From positions 6,882,001 through 6,946,000 of the forward strand of contig JAJTUQ010000003.1 in NCBI GenBank assembly GCA_021399445.1: a stretch of 64,000 nucleotides of DNA, in the 5' to 3' direction. Shown here one piece after another: positions 38,513-62,002 of the stretch. Both the position numbers and the translations under genes were made by a program. The stretch's first letter is position 1, and each line of letters starts with the position of its first letter. This stretch comes from Xylogone sp. PMI_703 (Eukaryota > Ascomycota > Leotiomycetes). Below the pieces are notes generated by a model. The model was given only the letters and a program-made list of their open reading frames with translations. It was not told the origin of the DNA and did no database searches.

Positions 38513-40445
<1,933 letters not shown>

Positions 40446-45692: not shown

Positions 45693-47359
45693 ATGGCTAC
45701 CCCAAACACCGGATTCCTGGCCCGAGCTGGAGAATCCTCTCTAGAGCTTGCGAGCCATATCACCGCTAGATTTGGGATCAGGAACACAGCGGTGATTGTG
45801 ATCATTACTATCTTTCTTGGCTATAATATCATCAGAGTAAGTCTTACGCTTTCCAAAGTGGGCTATCTCTAACCAGGCTGCAGCGGATCCAAGTGGCCTA
45901 CTTCTCGCCGTTAAGCCGCATTCCGGGACCATGGCATGCACACCTGACTGGCCTCAACCTCAAGCTGAACATTCTGCGAGGGAATCGAGTTAATTATGTA
46001 CATGCACTGCACGTAAAATACGGCCCATACGTTCGGGTCGCCCACAATGAGGTCGTAACATGCGATCCCGCCGCCGCGAAGGACATCCACGCAGTTGGCA
46101 CACGTTGGCGCAAGTGTGTTCCCCAACAAACTACTCCAAATATCTTCAGCATTGCAGATCCAAAAAAGCATAACATCCGGCAGCGGTTCTATCACATAGC
46201 CTTCAGCCAGGCGGGCTTAAGGGAGAGAATGGAACCAAAAGTATTGGACCTGGCATTGGAGGCGGCAAAAGGAATCAAAAAAGACGCTGAGAGTAATGGT
46301 GGCCTTGTCAACGTGCATGAGTGGTTCATGCTCTTTGGCAACGACGTGATGTGCATATTGACGTTTGGTGAAGGCTTTGGGTTAATCCGGCAGGGCAAGA
46401 GACTAGAAGATGTTGTGACGCCGGTATATGTCCACCAGATGATTGGCTGGATAGAGCTCTCTCTCCCCATTTTCTTGTTTGGTCGATTCGTTCTATCACG
46501 CTTTTCAGCACGTGCGCAAAGGATCTTCTGCGCAGATGTGAAACTTAATCCTACCAAGAATGAAACCGTGGCACAATTGAATATGAGGCCGAAGAATGAA
46601 GAAGGACGAACAGTGTTTGCGCAGGCCATTGAGGATGCCAAGGGAGACGAATTGCTTAAAAGCCACGGTAAGACACGCTTGACTGATGACGAGATCGCAG
46701 CGGACGCATTAGGCTTTCGATTAGCTGGATCGGAACCCGCCAGTGTCACCCTGACGTATTTGATATGGTGTGTCCTGAAGCGTCCAGAGGTGCAAAAGTT
46801 AGTGGAGGAAGAAGTCGCAGACGTTGAAATTACGGATGAGGCCACCGAGAAGCTACCGATCCTCAGTGCTGTGATCCTAGAGACGCTGCGCCTATGGGGC
46901 GGAAACGCAACGGCTATGAGAAGGAGGGAGGATGAGACCGCAGAGGGGACGGTTCTCGGCGGATACCGCATCCCCAAAGGAACGACAGTATCAACGCAAG
47001 CATATTCGTTACACCGCAATCCAGATGTATGGGAAGACGCTTACAGGTAAGGCAGTACAAGTATCCGCTGACGGTCAAAGTACTGATAACTTGCCAGGTT
47101 CGACCACACGAGATGGCTAGACCCGTCCCAAAGCCACGCCCTTGCGCAAGATCGCTTCCAGCCGTTCAATGTAGGCACCCGTATGTGCGCTGCATATCAT
47201 CTTGCTATGATGGAGATACGTCTCATGGCTACCGTGTTCTTCAAGACTTTCCCTGGAGCAAAATTGGCTCCATCTGTAACCGATGAAAGCATGGAGATGA
47301 TAGATCGATTCAACCTAATTCCTAAATATCACCGTTGTGAGATTATTGTAAAACCTTAA
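45693..47359 (+). CDS. cytochrome P450 monooxygenase
   Basis: Three exons, 45693-45836, 45884-47046 and 47098-47359, give 522 residues. An N-terminal membrane anchor (TAVIVIITIFLGYNII) is followed by the proline hinge SRIPGPWHA. Then come the I-helix region LAGSEPASVTLTYL, in which the usual AGxDT reads AGSEP, the K-helix ETLRL, and the haem loop FNVGTRMC with the Cys ligand in exon 3. All essential motifs are present, although the I-helix acid/Thr pair is atypical, which may alter oxygen activation. It should sit on the ER membrane and hydroxylate or couple the polyketide. The gene lies within the cluster next to the broken regulator. Confidence 0.92.
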
Positions 47360-50159: not shown

Positions 50160-50706
50160 GTTACAACATGGGGAAATAGCGCATGAATTAGATGATAGCC
50201 TGCTCGAGCGATCAGTCAGTTACTTTAGCATATTATATTTTGGCATCTCTTTGGATCTGTGATAGGGCATCGTTACCTGGATAACACTCTTGTGTGTGTT
50301 CTATCATCCTCTCTGGGGCTAGATCGCTATTGCTTGATCCGAGGTGCTAGGAAGAGGACTCGGGTGTTACTCGGAAGTAAAATAGGGAATTTATTTAAGC
50401 TGGAAAACATGAGATTATCATGCACCAATCTTGACGTGAAGGAAAAGTGTTCTTGTGCAGAAAGGCGAGCGGAGCTGCTTGGCAATTTTGAGTGAACAAG
50501 AGCAAGTGGAATGTGAGACGATAAGGGACGCAAAGCGACTTGTTTTTGATCCTCGGTTGGTCTGGTGGGGTCTGCTTTTGGAAAGAGGCCCCTTTCGGAT
50601 CCCTTTCTGTTGGGAATAGCGGAAGGCTCCCATGACCAAAGAGATCGTAAATGGTCCACAATTCAGTTATATTAATAAACTAAGATAAGAAAGGGTGGCT
50701 ATCCAC
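50160..50706. other. intergenic region
   Basis: 3' flank of the aldo/keto reductase and 5' flank of the tRNA gene. No gene recognised. Confidence 0.5.
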
Positions 50707-50835
50707 GCTCCTTTGGCGCAATGGCAGCGCGTAAGTCTACCAGTAAAACCAAGTTCTTATTTAAACATTTAACTAAAATCTTCGTAGGCAAGACTTCTAA
50801 TCTTGAGGCTGCGAGTTCGAGTCTCGCAAGGAGTG
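50707..50835 (+). tRNA. tRNA-Arg(UCU) with a non-canonical 57-nt intron-like insertion
   Basis: All arms can be drawn: acceptor 50707-50713 with 50828-50834, D stem GCGC 50716-50719 with 50727-50730, anticodon stem CAAGA 50789-50793 with TCTTG 50801-50805, loop CTTCTAA giving anticodon TCT (50796-50798). The T arm is GCGAG/CTCGC with loop TTCGAGT (50811-50827). The A box lies at 50714-50724 and the B box around 50814-50824. An 11-T run at 50847-50857 would end Pol III transcription. Without the block 50731-50787 the tRNA is perfect. That block starts GTAAGT, has TTTAACTAAA as a branch-like site and ends TAG. The anticodon loop itself has no intron at 37/38. Confidence 0.85.
50731..50787 (+). 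other. spliceosomal-like intron inside the tRNA gene
   Basis: 57 nt lying between D-stem position 25 and G26. Donor GTAAGT, branch-like TTAACTAA about 16 nt from the end, acceptor TAG. It has the size and signals of the protein-gene introns in this window, not of a tRNA-endonuclease intron. Confidence 0.7.
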
Positions 50836-51580
50836 CTCTTTGTTCCTTTTTTTTTTTCCCTTGTCAATATATAATAATCGTCAGGCTTCAGCCACACGTA
50901 TTGCCTAAATTTCTCGCATTCGCTTAAAGTGGAGTCGCAGTTGAACGCGGGTTATAATTTTCTCAGCGCGGGTACGTGGTGTGGCGCGACGTGACCTCAT
51001 CAGGGGTAAAAATTTCCAAGCTCATTGATTTTGTGTGAAAACCAAATAGAAATTCAATGACACCTAATTTTCAACTTTGAATTATCAAAACACTATCTTA
51101 TATTTTAATGTATATAATTATAAATAATACATAAATTTTAATAGGTTAACCTTTTTAAATTTGGAATATCGATTCTCTGATATATATATCCACCGAGTAA
51201 GAGAAACTGCTCCTTAAGTTATGCGTTTGCATGCATTCATGTATAGCTTTAACTCCTAAGAATATAATCCTTTATATTGCACTGTAATTCTCCCTCCTGT
51301 CTCTGCGAAGGTAGCCGCTTATGCGCCCATCGCACTGATTTCGCAACAGTGGTGATCTTGGACCAAGGCTCGGATTCCGCTGACCGACGACACATATATG
51401 TACATTTGCGAAAAATCCGAAAGTCCGCGAAATCTGATCTGGGCCTCAATGTTATGCATACGACGCTAGCAACCTTTGTGTTTGAAGGTATACGGAATAT
51501 AAAGAGATCTTTGTAGGCGCGCTTTTTGTGTGGGCTCTCCCAGCCCTCCTCCAGTCTCGCCTATTTATTCTCCTCTAGCA
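50836..51580. other. intergenic region
   Basis: tRNA terminator followed by an AT-rich stretch and the promoter of the NmrA-type gene. No gene recognised. Confidence 0.5.
50847..50857 (+). terminator. RNA polymerase III T-run terminator
   Basis: Eleven consecutive T, 12 nt after the tRNA discriminator base. Confidence 0.8.
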
Positions 51581-55400: not shown

Positions 55401-58400
55401 ATGGAGCCAGTAGTTTCTTCTGCGCCTTTCATGCCTCCTATAGGCAGCCCTCAACAATGCAATATCCTTCTTTTTGGAGATCTTACAGGCGCGTTCGAAG
55501 ACGATCTTCGTCAGCTGCTCCATTGCAAGAGCAATGGCTTGTTGCAGTCATTTTTTCACCAGGTCAGCCAGGCATTTCGGCAGGAACTTGCACTATTGCC
55601 TAGCCAACAGCAAGAATGGTTTCCACGGTTCACCGATCTTGTAGATCTAATGGCCAATCTTGATGGTATGGTTGGTAGGCATGCCTTGAGATTTGGCCTT
55701 CTTTGCGTCTATCAAGTTGGTCGATTAATTAAGTGAGAAGTGCCCCGTTGATTAGAATACCAATGGGCTTCAGGCTAATCATCCGTTCTTTTGTCATTAG
55801 CTCTGATTTCTATCCTAATGCTGCTAACTCCTATCTAATGGGAGTCTGTACTGGCACGTTCGCCGCTGCGGCGGTTGCGTCGTCACAGTCGATACGAGAA
55901 TTGGTCCCAGCTGGCGTTGAAGCAGCAATTGTAGCCTTTCGGACCGGACTACATTCCCTCAAGATGCAGCGGGACATCGAGCCCTGCTCAGTAGAGGAGT
56001 CACGTCCATGGTCATGTATCGTTGGCTTACAAGAAATCAAGGCTCTTGAGATTCTCCGACAGTTCAATGCAGAGGAGGTGAGGCTTTTATGAACGTATCA
56101 TACAGACCCCAAAAACTGACCTAGATAGCGCCTGTCGAGAAGCCTGCAACCTTACATAAGCGCTGTCACGCCGTCTAATGTGACAATAAGCGGCCCTCCT
56201 CGTGTTTTAGAACGCCTAATCAGCTCTTCTTCGCTCAAAGCTCATGCAATCACAATTCATACTCCGTATCACGCCACTCATTTGAATGGAGCTGAAGAGG
56301 TAACTGAGGTGCTTGGGCGCTTAAGCGATCGGGGCTTGAAGGCGCGTCGGCAACGGATGCGGCTCATGTCGGCCGCGGCTGGTACTTTTACGACGGCAGA
56401 GGACTTCAGGGGCCTTTTACGCAAGGCTGTCGAGGAAAGCCTCTGTGAGCAGGTACGGTGGGATAAGACCTGCCTTTCAATCTCATCTACTCTCGCCAAG
56501 ATAGATGAGTTGCAGTCATGTGTAGTGATACCTGTGGTATCGAATGCTGCCACGATATTAAGCTCTGCTCTTCAGAAGAAATCTCACCTGCATACCACGA
56601 TATCGAACATACTAAACTCGAAAGTAGAGGGCATTGACATGAACCCGGCAGCTGGGACGTTTCAGGATTCTAAAATTGCCATCGTGGGATTCTCTGGTAG
56701 GTTCCCGGAGGCAGCTTCGAACGATGAGCTTTGGCAGGTCCTTATGGCTGCTCGTGATTGTTCGCGTACCATCCCAAAAGACCGGTTCGACTGGGAGGCA
56801 CACTACGATCCAACTGGCAAGAAGAAGAACCATACTCGTGTGAAATACGGGTGTTTCATCAACGAACCCGGCGTTTTCGATGCCAAATTCTTCAACCTCT
56901 CGCCGCGTGAGGCGGACAATACTGATCCGGCGCAGCGTCTTGCGCTCATGGCAGCTTACGAGGCCATGGAAATGGCCGGCCTCGTACCTGATCGGACACC
57001 ATCCACTCAGCGTGACCGCATTGGTGTCTTCTTTGGTGTGACGAGCGACGACTGGCGCGAAGTCAACAGCGGCCAGGATGTTGATACCTATTTTATTCCT
57101 GGCGGCAACCGTGCCTTCGTGCCTGGCCGTATCAGTTACTCCTTCCGACTGTCGGGGCCGAGTATCTCGGTGGATACGGCATGTTCGTCCAGTTTCGCTG
57201 CCATATCGACGGCATGCAAGTATCTATGGCAAGGCGACTGCGACTCAGCGATTGCAGGAGGCACCAACGTACTGACCAACCCCGATAACTTTGTTGGGCT
57301 TGACCGTGGCCACTTCTTATCGACGACAGGTAACTGCGCTCCATTCGATGACTCAGCCAGTGGCTACTGTCGAGCAGATGGCGTCGGTGCTGTTATACTC
57401 AAAAGGCTGGAAGACGCGCAGGCGGACAATGATCCTATCTTCGGCGTGATCGTTGGAAGCAGCACCAACCACTGTGGCCAAACCGTCTCTATCACCCGGC
57501 CGCATGAAGGCGACCAGCTCTCGTTGTTCAAGCGTATCTTGCGGCACACCAACACCAACCCGACAGATGTCAGCTATGTGGAGATGCACGGCACGGGGAC
57601 GCAGGCCGGAGATGCTGCTGAAATGCGCTCGGTGCTGTGTGCCTTTGCCTGGGACCGCCGGCGTACAATTGCATCTCCTCCACGACCACTGCACCTCGGC
57701 GCAGTCAAGGCCAACGTAGGCCACGCAGAATCGGCCTCGGGCGTCACGTCGCTGATCAAGGTGCTAATGATGATGCAGCACAGCCTGGTGCCGCCGCACC
57801 GTCTCGATGGTGAGCTGAATCGGAACTATCCAACCGATATGGCTGACCGGAACGTGCATATTGCCTTCAAGCCAACACCGTGGCGACGTGAGGACTCTCC
57901 GGGCGACAAGCGGATGGTGTTCCTGAATAACTTCAGTGCTGCTGGCGGCAACACTGCTATTTTACTGGAGGATGCTCCACGTAGGGCTGCACCGCTACAG
58001 CCGGCGGATCCTCGCACCGTCTTCCCTATCGCTATTACCGCCAAGACGCCTGCGGCGCTAGAAGCAAATTGCCGCGCGCTTATCGCCTATCTCGAGAGCA
58101 ACCCGCAGGCATCGCTGCCCGCACTATCGTACACTACCACGGCTCGTCGTTCCCACTACAAGTTCCGCCAGCTGGTGTCCGGTAACAATGTTGCTGCAGT
58201 TAAGGCCGCTCTACAACGCCTTGTTGACGAGAAAGGGTTGGCTGTCAAGGCCCAACCCACCGCGCCTCAGGTAGTCTTTACGTTCACAGGGCAGGGAACG
58301 CTCTACGCGGGCATTGGGAAACAACTATTCGAGCATGTCCCTGCCTTCCGTGCTGACATCCTCCGTCTCAGCCGTATTGCGCAATACCAGGGTCATCCGA

Positions 58401-61400
58401 ATATCCTGTCCTTGATTTCAGGCAACGCAGGTGCTGACGAGAATGCGGACGACCCGGTCGTGGCCCAATTGGCTGTTGTTTGCATTCAGATGGCCCTCTC
58501 GCATCTCTGGACCTTCTGGGTTGGTGAACCATCGTCTGTTATCGGCCATAGCCTAGGAGAGTACGCGGCTCTCTACGCTGCTGGGGTTTTGTCTGCCAGC
58601 GACACAATTCACCTCGTTGGTAGCCGCGCTCAACTACTTGAAAAGCACTGTACCAAACGAACACACTCGATGCTCGCGGTCAAAGCTCCCGTCGCCGCAA
58701 TCACCGCTGACTTGGCCAAAACTACTTGCACCATTGCCTGCATCAACTCCCCTTCAAGTACTGTCGTCAGCGGGCCGAAGGCAGAGATTCGGAAATTGGC
58801 AGAGTTGCTGAAATCTAGGAATGTAGATGCTATAACACTCGATGTCCCTTATGCCTTCCATTCTTCGCAGGTGGAGCCTATTTTGGCCGAATACGAGATA
58901 CTTGCGAGTACCGTACATTTTAACGAGCCAAAGGTGCCCTATTTGTCGCCACTTCTTTCCAAGACGGTTGCAGTGGGCGCCCACGGCATACTTAATGCGA
59001 CCTACCTTGCGCGGGCAACTCGAGAGTGTGTTGACTTCAAGGGTGCTATCGAGGCTGCTCTTGTCGGAAAGGTAGTCAATGACTCTACTATTTGGATTGA
59101 GATCGGTGCCCATCCAGCGTGTTCAGGAATGGTGAAACAGATAATTGGTTCTCACGTCCTTACCGCTCCTTCATTAAGGAAGGATGCCGATACGTGGAAG
59201 GTGCTTGTTGGCTCTCTGGAAACTCTTTATCTCGCGGGTGCTGTTATCCATTGGAACGAATACCATCGTGACTTCGAAGCTGCCCACGAGGTCTTATCTT
59301 TACCAAGTTATAAATGGGATCTCAAGAACTACTGGATACAGTATAGGCACAACTTCTGTCTTACAAAAGGAGATGATCCAGCAAGCCTCAGGCCCCAAGT
59401 TCCCGCCACGCTCTCTGCTAATGTCCTGACTGCGCCATCACTGTCTTCATCGGTGCATCGTGTACTGGAAGAGAACAACTCGGACGAGGTCTCTGTTTTA
59501 CTTACCGAATCTGATCTACATGACCCACGACTCATTCCTATACTGTCGGGTCATAAAGTCAACACTGCCATGTTGTGCCCGTCTTCTCTCTACGCTGATA
59601 TGGCCCTCACCATTGCAAACCACATGCTCAAATCCAGCGGGAAGCTTAATGATAAGGTTGGGGTAGATTGCGGTGCAATGAATGTGCATCGCCCATTGAT
59701 TTATCAGTCGGGTGACACCTCTCAGCTATTCAGAGTAGCAGCAATTGCAAAATGGCCGAAGAACGAAATATCTCTAAAGTTCTTTAGTGTTGATGCCGCC
59801 GGACGCGAACTGGCGGATCATGCCTCCTGCATCGTGAAGATTACGAAGAGTCAGAATTGGCTTGATGACTGGAAGCGCAACTCCTATTTGGTCACTAGTC
59901 GGATCTCGTCTCTTCACGAGGCTACCGACACGGGTAGAGCCCACAAGTTAAAGAGGGGCCTTGTGTACAAACTTTTCAGCGCCTTAGTCGATTACGCCCC
60001 TAACTACCAGGGAATGCAGCAAGTCGTTCTAGACAGCGAGTATCTTGAAGCCACGGCCGTGGTTAAGTTTCAAGTAGGCGACCAAGGCTTTCACTGGAAT
60101 CCTTGCTGGATTGACAGTCTGGGCCACATTGCCGGCTTCATTATGAACGGCAATGAGAACGTCGCATCTAAAGACCAGGTGTTTATTAACCATGGCTGGG
60201 ATTCAATGCGATGTGCTAAACCGATCGATGGCGGACGAGAATACGTGACCTACAACCGCATGCAATTAGAGACAGGCACGATGTATGTTGGAACTACGTA
60301 CGTCTTCGAAGGTGAAGAACTTGTGGCAGAATTCCAAGGTGTCAGAGTAAGTTTCCTCTTTTTACAAGATAACTTTCTAGAATCTAAAATTATGTAGTTT
60401 CAAGGAGTAAATCGCTCAGTCTTAGACAGACTGTTGCCTGGGAAAGCAGAAACGGCAGTCAAACGCTCTACTCCCGAAGCATCTCTCGCCGCTCCGGCTA
60501 ATAATTCCACCAAAGTCGACCAAGTGAGGAAAGTAATAACCCCCACTCCTCCTCAGAGTCAGCCTCAGAGCCAGCCTGGGAAGGCCGTCGGAGCCCTGAA
60601 GATTATAATAGACGAGGTTCAGATCAGCGAGGACCAAGTTGAGTTGGACGCAGAGTTTGCCGACCTAGGCATCGACTCCCTTCTTGCTCTCACTATTGTC
60701 AGCCGTCTGCGTGAGGAGCTGGATATCGATATCCCATCCTCCGCCTTCATGGACTATGCAACAATCCGAAGCCTTCTTAGCGCTTTAGGAGGCGAAGCAG
60801 GTTTAGAACCTTCGTCAACGCAAACTGCAGCCTCCACGCTCCCGTCCAGCAGCAGTAGTCAAGTTGAAGACGAATACGAGACTGATGCCACTCCTCCTAT
60901 TGATGACAGTAGTGACTCGGATGCCGACATTATGGTCACTGTTCGAAAGACTATTGCACAAGAGACTGGAACAGATATTAACGATATATCGCCGAATTCG
61001 GTCCTCTCGGAGCTTGGTTTGGATGATGTACTCGCACTCACAATAACGAGCAAGATCTCAGAGGATATCGATGTCAAACTACCACCTGGCCTCTTTACTG
61101 ACAATAAAACACTTCGTGATGTCGATGCCGCTCTTCGAGAAGCCGGAATAATCGACGGAACTGGGCCAAAGATCGCCAGCGAGAATAAAACATCTTTCAT
61201 ACTGGATGCCCCACCACATGCGACCTCAGCATTGCTTCAAGGCTCTCCCAAGGCGGCAAATAAAACACTCTTCTTCTTTCCCGACGGTGCTGGATCCGCC
61301 ACCTCATACATGAACATCCCTGAGATATCTCAGGATGTCGTTGTCTATGGTCTGAACTGCCCATGGCTTAAAACTCCAGAGAATCTTAAGTTATCATTCG

Positions 61401-62002
61401 AGGACTACGTTTCCAAGTTCCTAGTAGAGATCAGAAGGCGCCAGCCGCGTGGGCCTTATAGTTTCGGCGGTTCATCCGCAGGAGGCATTCTCGCATACGA
61501 GGCAGCGCAGCAACTCGAACGCGTCGGAGAGAAGATTGACCGACTCATCTTGCTCGACACACCGGACCCAGTTGGGCTGGAGAATCCCAATCAACGCATG
61601 TATGATTTCTTAGACAGCATGGGAGCGTTTGGCATGATGGGCAAGAAGACTCCCTCATGGTTGCGCCCGCACTTTGACGCCTTCCTGGTTCTCCTTGACG
61701 GTTACAAGGTGAAGAAATACACTGGAAGCTCGCCCCCTCCCACCTATATTATCTATGCCCGCGACGGCATGTGCAAGTATCCGACAGATCCGCGTCCAGA
61801 AATCCGACCCGACGATCCAAGGGAGATGCTGTGGCTGTTGAACAACAGAACTGACTTCAGTGGCGCAGGCTGGAACACCTTGCTCGGTAAGCAGAACCTG
61901 CACATCAGCGTGCTAGATGATGTGAATCACTACACAATTTTACAATCTGGGCCGAAGATCAAAGAGTTGAGCCGTCTTATTGCTCGTGCTATGCAGGAAT
62001 AA
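55401..62002 (+). CDS. non-reducing polyketide synthase, SAT-KS-MAT-PT-ACP-ACP-TE
   Basis: Four exons, 55401-55732, 55801-56077, 56129-60346 and 60398-62002, give 2143 residues. Domains in order: SAT with [10 protein letters not shown] (Cys near residue 126); KS from about 385 with DTACSSS (Cys 57182-57184), [11 protein letters not shown] and NVGHAES. MAT has [12 protein letters not shown] (Ser 58550-58552). PT has ILSGHKVN and the Asp in WIDSLGH. ACP1 has GIDSLLAL (Ser 60676-60678); ACP2 reads [10 protein letters not shown] has GGSSAGG (Ser 61475-61477) and His in NHYTIL. It makes an aromatic polyketide from acetyl/malonyl units, folds it in PT and releases it by TE. ACP2 has Asp in place of the phosphopantetheine Ser and should be inactive. 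No reductive or methyltransferase domain is present. Chain length cannot be read by eye. Confidence 0.95.

Follow-up and report, generated by a model that had tools for sequence, protein, structure and literature searches.

A nuclear tRNA-Arg(UCU) gene of Xylogone sp. PMI_703 with a putative spliceosomal intron between positions 25 and 26

The tRNA-Arg(UCU) gene in the window

The window analysed here is a stretch of 64,000 nucleotides from Xylogone sp. PMI_703 (contig JAJTUQ010000003.1, here called C19; G000:C19:6882001-6946000) within a 50.1-Mb assembly of 25 contigs, the genus being placed in the Leotiomycetes as incertae sedis. At positions 50707-50835 the window contains a tRNA-Arg(UCU) gene whose exons, of 24 and 48 nt, surround an insert of 57 nt (Table 1). 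The second exon comprises the anticodon arm CAAGA-CTTCTAA-TCTTG, the variable loop, the T arm, the 3' strand of the acceptor, and G73; the names of the A and the B box follow the Pol III consensus.

Table 1. Positions of the elements of the C19 tRNA-Arg(UCU) gene within the window
Feature	Position	Strand	Basis
TATA-like upstream element TATATTAATAA, resembling that of the C20 paralog	50668..50678	+	direct reading; function putative
tRNA-Arg(UCU) exon 1 (positions 1-25: acceptor 5' strand, D arm)	50707..50730	+	24/24 bases same in C20 paralog
Internal promoter A box TGGCGCAATGG	50714..50724	+	located by sequence; name after Pol III consensus
mRNA-type intron, 57 nt, GTAAGT...TAG, between positions 25 and 26	50731..50787	+	55-nt paralog insert at matching junction
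5' splice site GTAAGT	50731..50736	+	common to both copies; 7/20 tubulin introns start GTAAGT
Putative branch site ATTTAAC, branch A 50772	50767..50773	+	15 nt 5' of exon 2
3' splice site TAG	50785..50787	+	kept in both copies; 11/20 tubulin introns end TAG
tRNA-Arg(UCU) exon 2 (positions 26-73), discriminator G73 included	50788..50835	+	48/48 bases same in C20 paralog
Internal promoter B box GAGTTCGAGTC, 88 nt 3' of A box	50813..50823	+	located by sequence; name likewise after consensus
11-T run, presumed Pol III terminator	50847..50857	+	direct reading; 50857 is the last T

The original prediction had stated that every arm pairs once 50731-50787 is left out, and the letters bear this out: the insert-free product of 72 nt has 7/7 pairs in the acceptor, 4/4 in the D, 5/5 in the anticodon, and 5/5 in the T stem; it carries the anticodon UCU along with A37 and G73, and was identified by ARAGORN as tRNA-Arg(tct). 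The G73 and the G1-U72 pair presumably agree with those of yeast tRNA-Arg(UCU). In the minimum-energy fold of the joined exons the D and T arms were kept, while pairs near position 26 were altered. The insert itself begins with GTAAGT, contains TTTAACTAAA, and ends with TAG, just as had been described. The boundary is not fixed by pairing alone, because a 57-nt cut after exon base 24, 25, 26, 27, 28, or 29 leaves the same full arm pairing in all six registers; one of these, the cut after base 24, gives GT...AG, and the proposed placement at about 25/26 is upheld by a paralog with an insert at the same junction.

In the uncut window the Rfam tRNA family gave a partial match at 50769-50829 (32.8 bits), the tRNA itself being the sole feature of the window to match Rfam at the gathering score; and ARAGORN, with the bacterial default, reported no tRNA at the locus. 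Among the surrounding open reading frames we recognised, by eye from the translations, one that is flavoprotein-like (39027-40127), one P450-like (46229-47050), a large one resembling a polyketide synthase (56357-60397), and one thioesterase-like (60749-62002); the interval 39027-62002 is perhaps a secondary-metabolite cluster around the tRNA gene.

A second copy, insert-less relatives, and the search for further UCU genes

The joined exons, used as a BLAST query against the genome (E<=10), matched six pieces distributed over four loci, among them a second complete gene at G000:C20:1776664-1776790, whose exons are identical to those of the C19 gene at 72/72 bases and which bears a 55-nt insert at the same 25/26 junction. 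The two genes lie on separate large contigs (8.06 and 6.93 Mb). Their inserts agree in 39/60 alignment columns, what is retained in both being GTAAGT, TAACT (which includes the TAAC of the putative branch site, present in the C20 copy as TGGTAAC 13 nt before exon 2), and TCTTC-TAG; the interiors—that is, the inserts minus 6 bases at the start and 20 or 18 at the end—align no better than shuffled sequences (1143/2000 as good). The 60-nt upstream flanks of the two genes align with a score of 17.5, which value was reached by 0/1000 shuffles, the best scores against 32 other tRNA flanks being 11.0 for C19 and 13.5 for C20. The downstream flanks, with a score of 12.5 (14/1000 shuffles as good, and 13.5 and 13.0 attained by other tRNA flanks), are not clearly related.

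Since the upstream flanks are related, and the exons and splice signals were held while the interiors drifted, the two genes are to be regarded as an old duplicate pair, and the intron probably predates the duplication. The exon identity of 72/72 as against the intron identity of 39/60 between the paralogs further indicates purifying selection on the exons. As judged from these alignments, the existence of a second copy with identical exons, a diverged insert, and preserved splice signals is the strongest evidence for the observation as a whole. The same facts—two loci on different large contigs, with diverged inserts—speak against the notion that the insert is a mobile element or an assembly artefact within a tRNA gene; and, although introner-like elements occur in some fungi, an element that spliced itself out would still suit the spliceosomal explanation, so that to this notion we give practically no weight.

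The comparison of the copies likewise decides the register of the intron. Rfam aligns the whole C20 gene (47.5 bits) as though it contained a canonical 37/38 intron, the anticodon arm being placed where the insert begins (GTAAGTTTTCTAA in C20) and the arm further along becoming either intronic or part of the variable loop; and the anticodon-loop option of ARAGORN models both copies in a similar manner, as Arg(tct) in C20 and as Gly(acc) in C19. In that event, however, the anticodons of the two copies would differ, UCU versus ACC; the ARAGORN models contain one (C20) and two (C19) anticodon-stem mismatches along with some 20 extra variable-loop bases; and in the Rfam-like version the supposed exon bases are alike between the copies at 9/13 positions, whereas the supposed intron bases are alike at 13/13. 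A join at 25/26, instead, pairs the anticodon stem at 5/5 and produces the 72/72 identity. On the basis of this inter-copy conservation we rejected the 37/38 position, even though both programs prefer it, and consider a misread canonical intron extremely improbable. Canonical models, which the original prediction had named as incompatible with its proposal, accordingly do exist, but are contradicted by the conservation between C19 and C20, and the 25/26 position stands.

The other two BLAST loci are relatives of the exons without the insert: C21:5038121-5038179 (plus a 5' part) and, on the minus strand, C12:89379-89437. In both, the insert is absent exactly at the junction and the arms are broken; the identity to the exons is 62/72 columns in C21 and 59/74 in C12, and neither was recognised as a tRNA by Rfam at E<=10. 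A G run in the T arm is common to the two. These relatives are a possible record of the state before the intron was gained. We also considered C21 as a retrocopy of a spliced tRNA, which origin would have been direct evidence of splicing, but this idea was unsupported, its downstream flank resembling that of C19 beyond the T run (score 19.5, the best of 32 other tRNA flanks being 13.5); for its upstream flank, 152/1000 shuffles aligned as well with that of C19. Because the downstream flank is related to that of C19, the C21 relative looks like a DNA duplicate rather than a retrocopy, either ancestrally intron-less or having since lost the intron.

With the original prediction had come the proposal to count the other tRNA-Arg(UCU) genes of the genome, and that count, by three patterns and BLAST at E<=10—a search narrower than a full tRNA census—yielded no further intact one. 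The first pattern, TTCTA-N14..16-GTTCRANNC (UCU anticodon, A37, and T loop), produced 40 matches in the whole genome compared with 74 for the reversed control; C19 and C20 share one context, as do two other matches, so that 38 different contexts are represented. Only in C19 and C20 were both the anticodon and the T stem paired at 5/5 among those 40, and the Rfam search of 18 of the 40 stretches recovered none at E<=1. A looser T-loop pattern gave 27 matches (51 in the control), of which 20 were taken as loci, ARAGORN finding a tRNA at C19 and C20 only. The third pattern, which admitted a UCU gene whether or not it has a 37/38 intron (D arm GGCNYARNGG, C32, CTTCTA), gave 38 matches versus 49 in the control; five had the spacing of a tRNA, with at most 2/4 D-stem pairs. 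In addition, a search of the genome with the Rfam tRNA family, in which 63/1824 candidates were scored, provided 51 other tRNA matches; no insert of the GTAAGT type was noted in these, the check with ARAGORN covering the anticodon loop alone. The decoding of AGA requires the UCU anticodon, and AGA accounts for 54/290 Arg codons in 15 open reading frames of the window (5598 codons; 15 of 17 frames were counted, the two left out including one antisense to another).

These results bear on the possibility that the two interrupted genes are dead or silent, the cell being supplied by another UCU gene missed by the patterns. In favour of that possibility are the scope of the search and, according to the excerpts of PMC4090602, the circumstance that eukaryotic tRNA genes with insertions in the D or T arm are usually interpreted as pseudogenes, the interrupted gene being for the most part one among many synonymous ones. 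In this genome, both of the intact synonymous genes found carry the insert, so that the usual ground for the pseudogene call is removed. Nor were the broken arms, promoter, or terminator of a pseudogene found in C19, where all arms pair and the A box, the B box, and the T run are present; promoter boxes and T runs speak against death or silence, as do the exons that stayed identical while the introns drifted, the lack of any other arm-paired gene in the 40 + 38 pattern matches or by BLAST, and the fact that the decayed copies are the insert-less ones. The original prediction had left two options, a tRNA gene interrupted by a spliceosomal intron or a gene that is dead; our results support the former, and the dead-gene branch becomes unlikely because of the identical exons, the diverged inserts, the only intact UCU genes found being these two, and the decay of the insert-less relatives. 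We would thus assign to it a low probability.

Splice signals in the tRNA inserts and in other small-RNA genes

As a reference for the mRNA introns of this genome we used 20 introns from four tubulin genes, obtained by spliced protein alignment (identity to the guide proteins 432/445, 419/445, 362/445, and 321/444 residues; one more tubulin-like gene, L119/L120, is outside the set), which procedure replaced an ab initio intron finder whose models of the window genes were unreliable. The tubulin introns measure 48-127 nt, with a median of 57, the tRNA inserts being 57 and 55 nt long. A matrix of the 5' site, the branch site, and the 3' site was built from those 20 introns, the branch sites being picked by a CTRAY-like rule, and gave the tRNA inserts scores of 19.5 and 20.0, each of which is at least as high as 14 of the 20 leave-one-out tubulin scores. 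The two strands of the window together contain 2309 stretches of 54-58 nt with GT...AG ends, whatever true introns occur there being counted; five of these score as high as the C19 insert and one as high as that of the paralog, a likeness beyond what chance would give.

The donor GTAAGT contributes 9.9 bits on the tubulin matrix; the branch sites of the tRNA inserts, at 4.8 and 5.3 bits compared with 8.8 and 9.6 for two U6 sites, score moderately and are the weaker part of the match. Also against the spliceosomal reading, the exon ends in C before GTAAGT instead of the usual G before GT. Nonetheless, both copies exhibit features of a U2-type intron: they run from GT to AG, with a 5' site complementary to U1, have a branch site near the 3' end, and are of typical length for this genome. 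Group I and group II self-splicing introns are far larger than 57 nt.

Another enzyme that might remove the inserts is the tRNA endonuclease (TSEN), acting on a non-canonical intron as in archaea and Cyanidioschyzon, in which event the GT...AG ends would be coincidental. Non-canonical tRNA introns, at 25/26 among other positions, are known in archaea and are also present in Cyanidioschyzon merolae and in nucleomorphs, as stated in the excerpts of PMC4090602; furthermore, many of the genome's other tRNA genes use anticodon-loop introns, ARAGORN placing them in 18/20 genes (L122-L141), which count does not exclude other positions, since the option employed is restricted to the anticodon loop. 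Nevertheless, a simplified, purpose-made scan, run on the C19 and the C20 gene with the junction set in each of two registers, did not detect the bulge-helix-bulge motif at either junction: at C19 there was no central helix, and at C20 0/25 candidates (22 + 3 by register) had an outer helix of at least two pairs. The pre-tRNAs, moreover, fold no better than shuffled sequences (z of 0.51, for a fold begun at the third base of the gene, and of -0.22), and cleavage by TSEN would leave the conserved GTAAGT, TAAC, and TAG unexplained; we therefore hold this mode of removal to be very unlikely. Among the 20 genes, ARAGORN designated the one at G000:C12:5150310-5150830 a selenocysteine tRNA; by eye, it appears more like an intron-bearing tRNA-Leu and is perhaps a miscall.

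The U6 snRNA genes were also inspected. A search of the genome (47/3687 candidates scored) produced at least four matches, one above the family cut-off. By eye, the gene that we call U6a (G000:C20:2705871 onwards) has a 53-nt insert GTAGGT...GCTAAC...TTCTTAG after GGTCAATTT, and U6b (G000:C21:3523558 onwards) has three inserts (52, 51, and 54 nt), of which the first occupies the site of the U6a insert and the second lies inside ACAG/AGA, where it interrupts the ACAGAGA box. Once the inserts are removed, the exons of U6a and U6b are identical over 103 nt. Both of the intact U6 genes found thus carry GT...AG inserts of the mRNA type (one and three, respectively). Of these four inserts, three score like mRNA introns, equalling or exceeding 10, 14, and 20 of the 20 tubulin introns, and the second insert of U6b scores weakly (1/20). 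At G000:C12:1734791-1734884 lies a decayed U6 that by eye is without inserts, in parallel to the decayed insert-less tRNA-Arg copies. No inserts were present in the 5S rRNA, for which 28/28 matches span exactly 120 nt (47/2097 candidates scored). Two matches to the U3 snoRNA (G000:C22:2032557-2032818 and G000:C12:5079676-5079944), at 262 and 269 nt, exceed the 219 positions of the model in length and perhaps contain introns, like their counterparts in other fungi.

Proposed maturation and comparison with known systems

Taken together, the pairing, the paralog, and the splice signals make it highly probable that the C19 locus, one of the two found, houses a functional nuclear tRNA-Arg(UCU) gene with a spliceosomal U2-type intron at 25/26. 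According to this proposal, Pol III would transcribe the gene from the A and B boxes observed in the exons up to the T run; the spliceosome would then recognise GUAAGU and the UUUAAC branch site—both of them visible in the sequence—within an uncapped pre-tRNA, releasing the 57-nt intron as a lariat and joining C25 to G26. The joined RNA can form the full cloverleaf, as the pair counts indicate, and RNase P, RNase Z, and CCA addition would complete a tRNA that decodes AGA. With less assurance, though we think the balance inclines that way, every functional AGA-decoding tRNA gene in this lineage would have a spliceosomal intron, which arrangement would make the spliceosome obligatory for an essential tRNA.

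If the proposal is true, the spliceosome is able to mature a Pol III tRNA transcript that is uncapped and has to fold, and codon-specific translation would be tied to splicing capacity; on the broader reading, AGA translation would be directly dependent on the mRNA-splicing machinery. In teaching, the splicing of tRNA is kept apart from that of mRNA, each having enzymes and intron types of its own; and the presence of U6 and tRNA introns in one genome constitutes a natural test of intron entry into Pol III genes. The description of tRNAscan-SE 2.0 in the excerpts of PMC8450103 has the search for non-canonical introns for archaeal candidates only. Because eukaryotic tRNA finders ignore introns of this kind, such genes may escape annotation in other fungi, a gene class missed by tRNA annotation being thus predicted. 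The excerpts of PMC6777427 and PMC8216456 contain nothing further on insertions in tRNA genes. In a search of open-licence literature, we found no paper describing a tRNA gene interrupted by a spliceosomal intron.

The nearest precedent is that of U6: Tani and Ohshima in 1989, Potashkin and Frendewey in 1989, and Canzler in 2016 are said to have described mRNA-type introns in fungal U6 snRNA genes, and the spliceosomal step proposed here therefore has a precedent in a Pol III transcript. As in the present gene, those introns are small, with GT...AG ends and a branch site, and interrupt a structured Pol III RNA; here, in contrast, a tRNA is the host: its A and B boxes are internal, and it has a separate splicing enzyme of its own. 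Fungal U3 snoRNA genes, as described in the excerpts of PMC5832005, carry short normal spliceosomal introns, U3 and U6 being, according to that paper, the sole small structured RNAs in which introns are known to occur often; the likeness consists in a short spliceosomal-type intron in a small structured RNA, but U3 is no tRNA, whereas the insert described here lies within the body of a cloverleaf. The introns of archaea, C. merolae, and nucleomorphs, again on the excerpts of PMC4090602, resemble the present one in splitting a tRNA gene outside 37/38, and differ from it in relying on the bulge-helix-bulge or on a mechanism there given as unknown, where in our two genes we encountered mRNA splice signals and did not find that motif. 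Finally, the canonical eukaryotic 37/38 introns, many of which are present in this same genome, are likewise removed before the tRNA works, but are set apart from the intron of the tRNA-Arg(UCU) genes by their position, their sequence signals, and the enzyme presumed to excise them.
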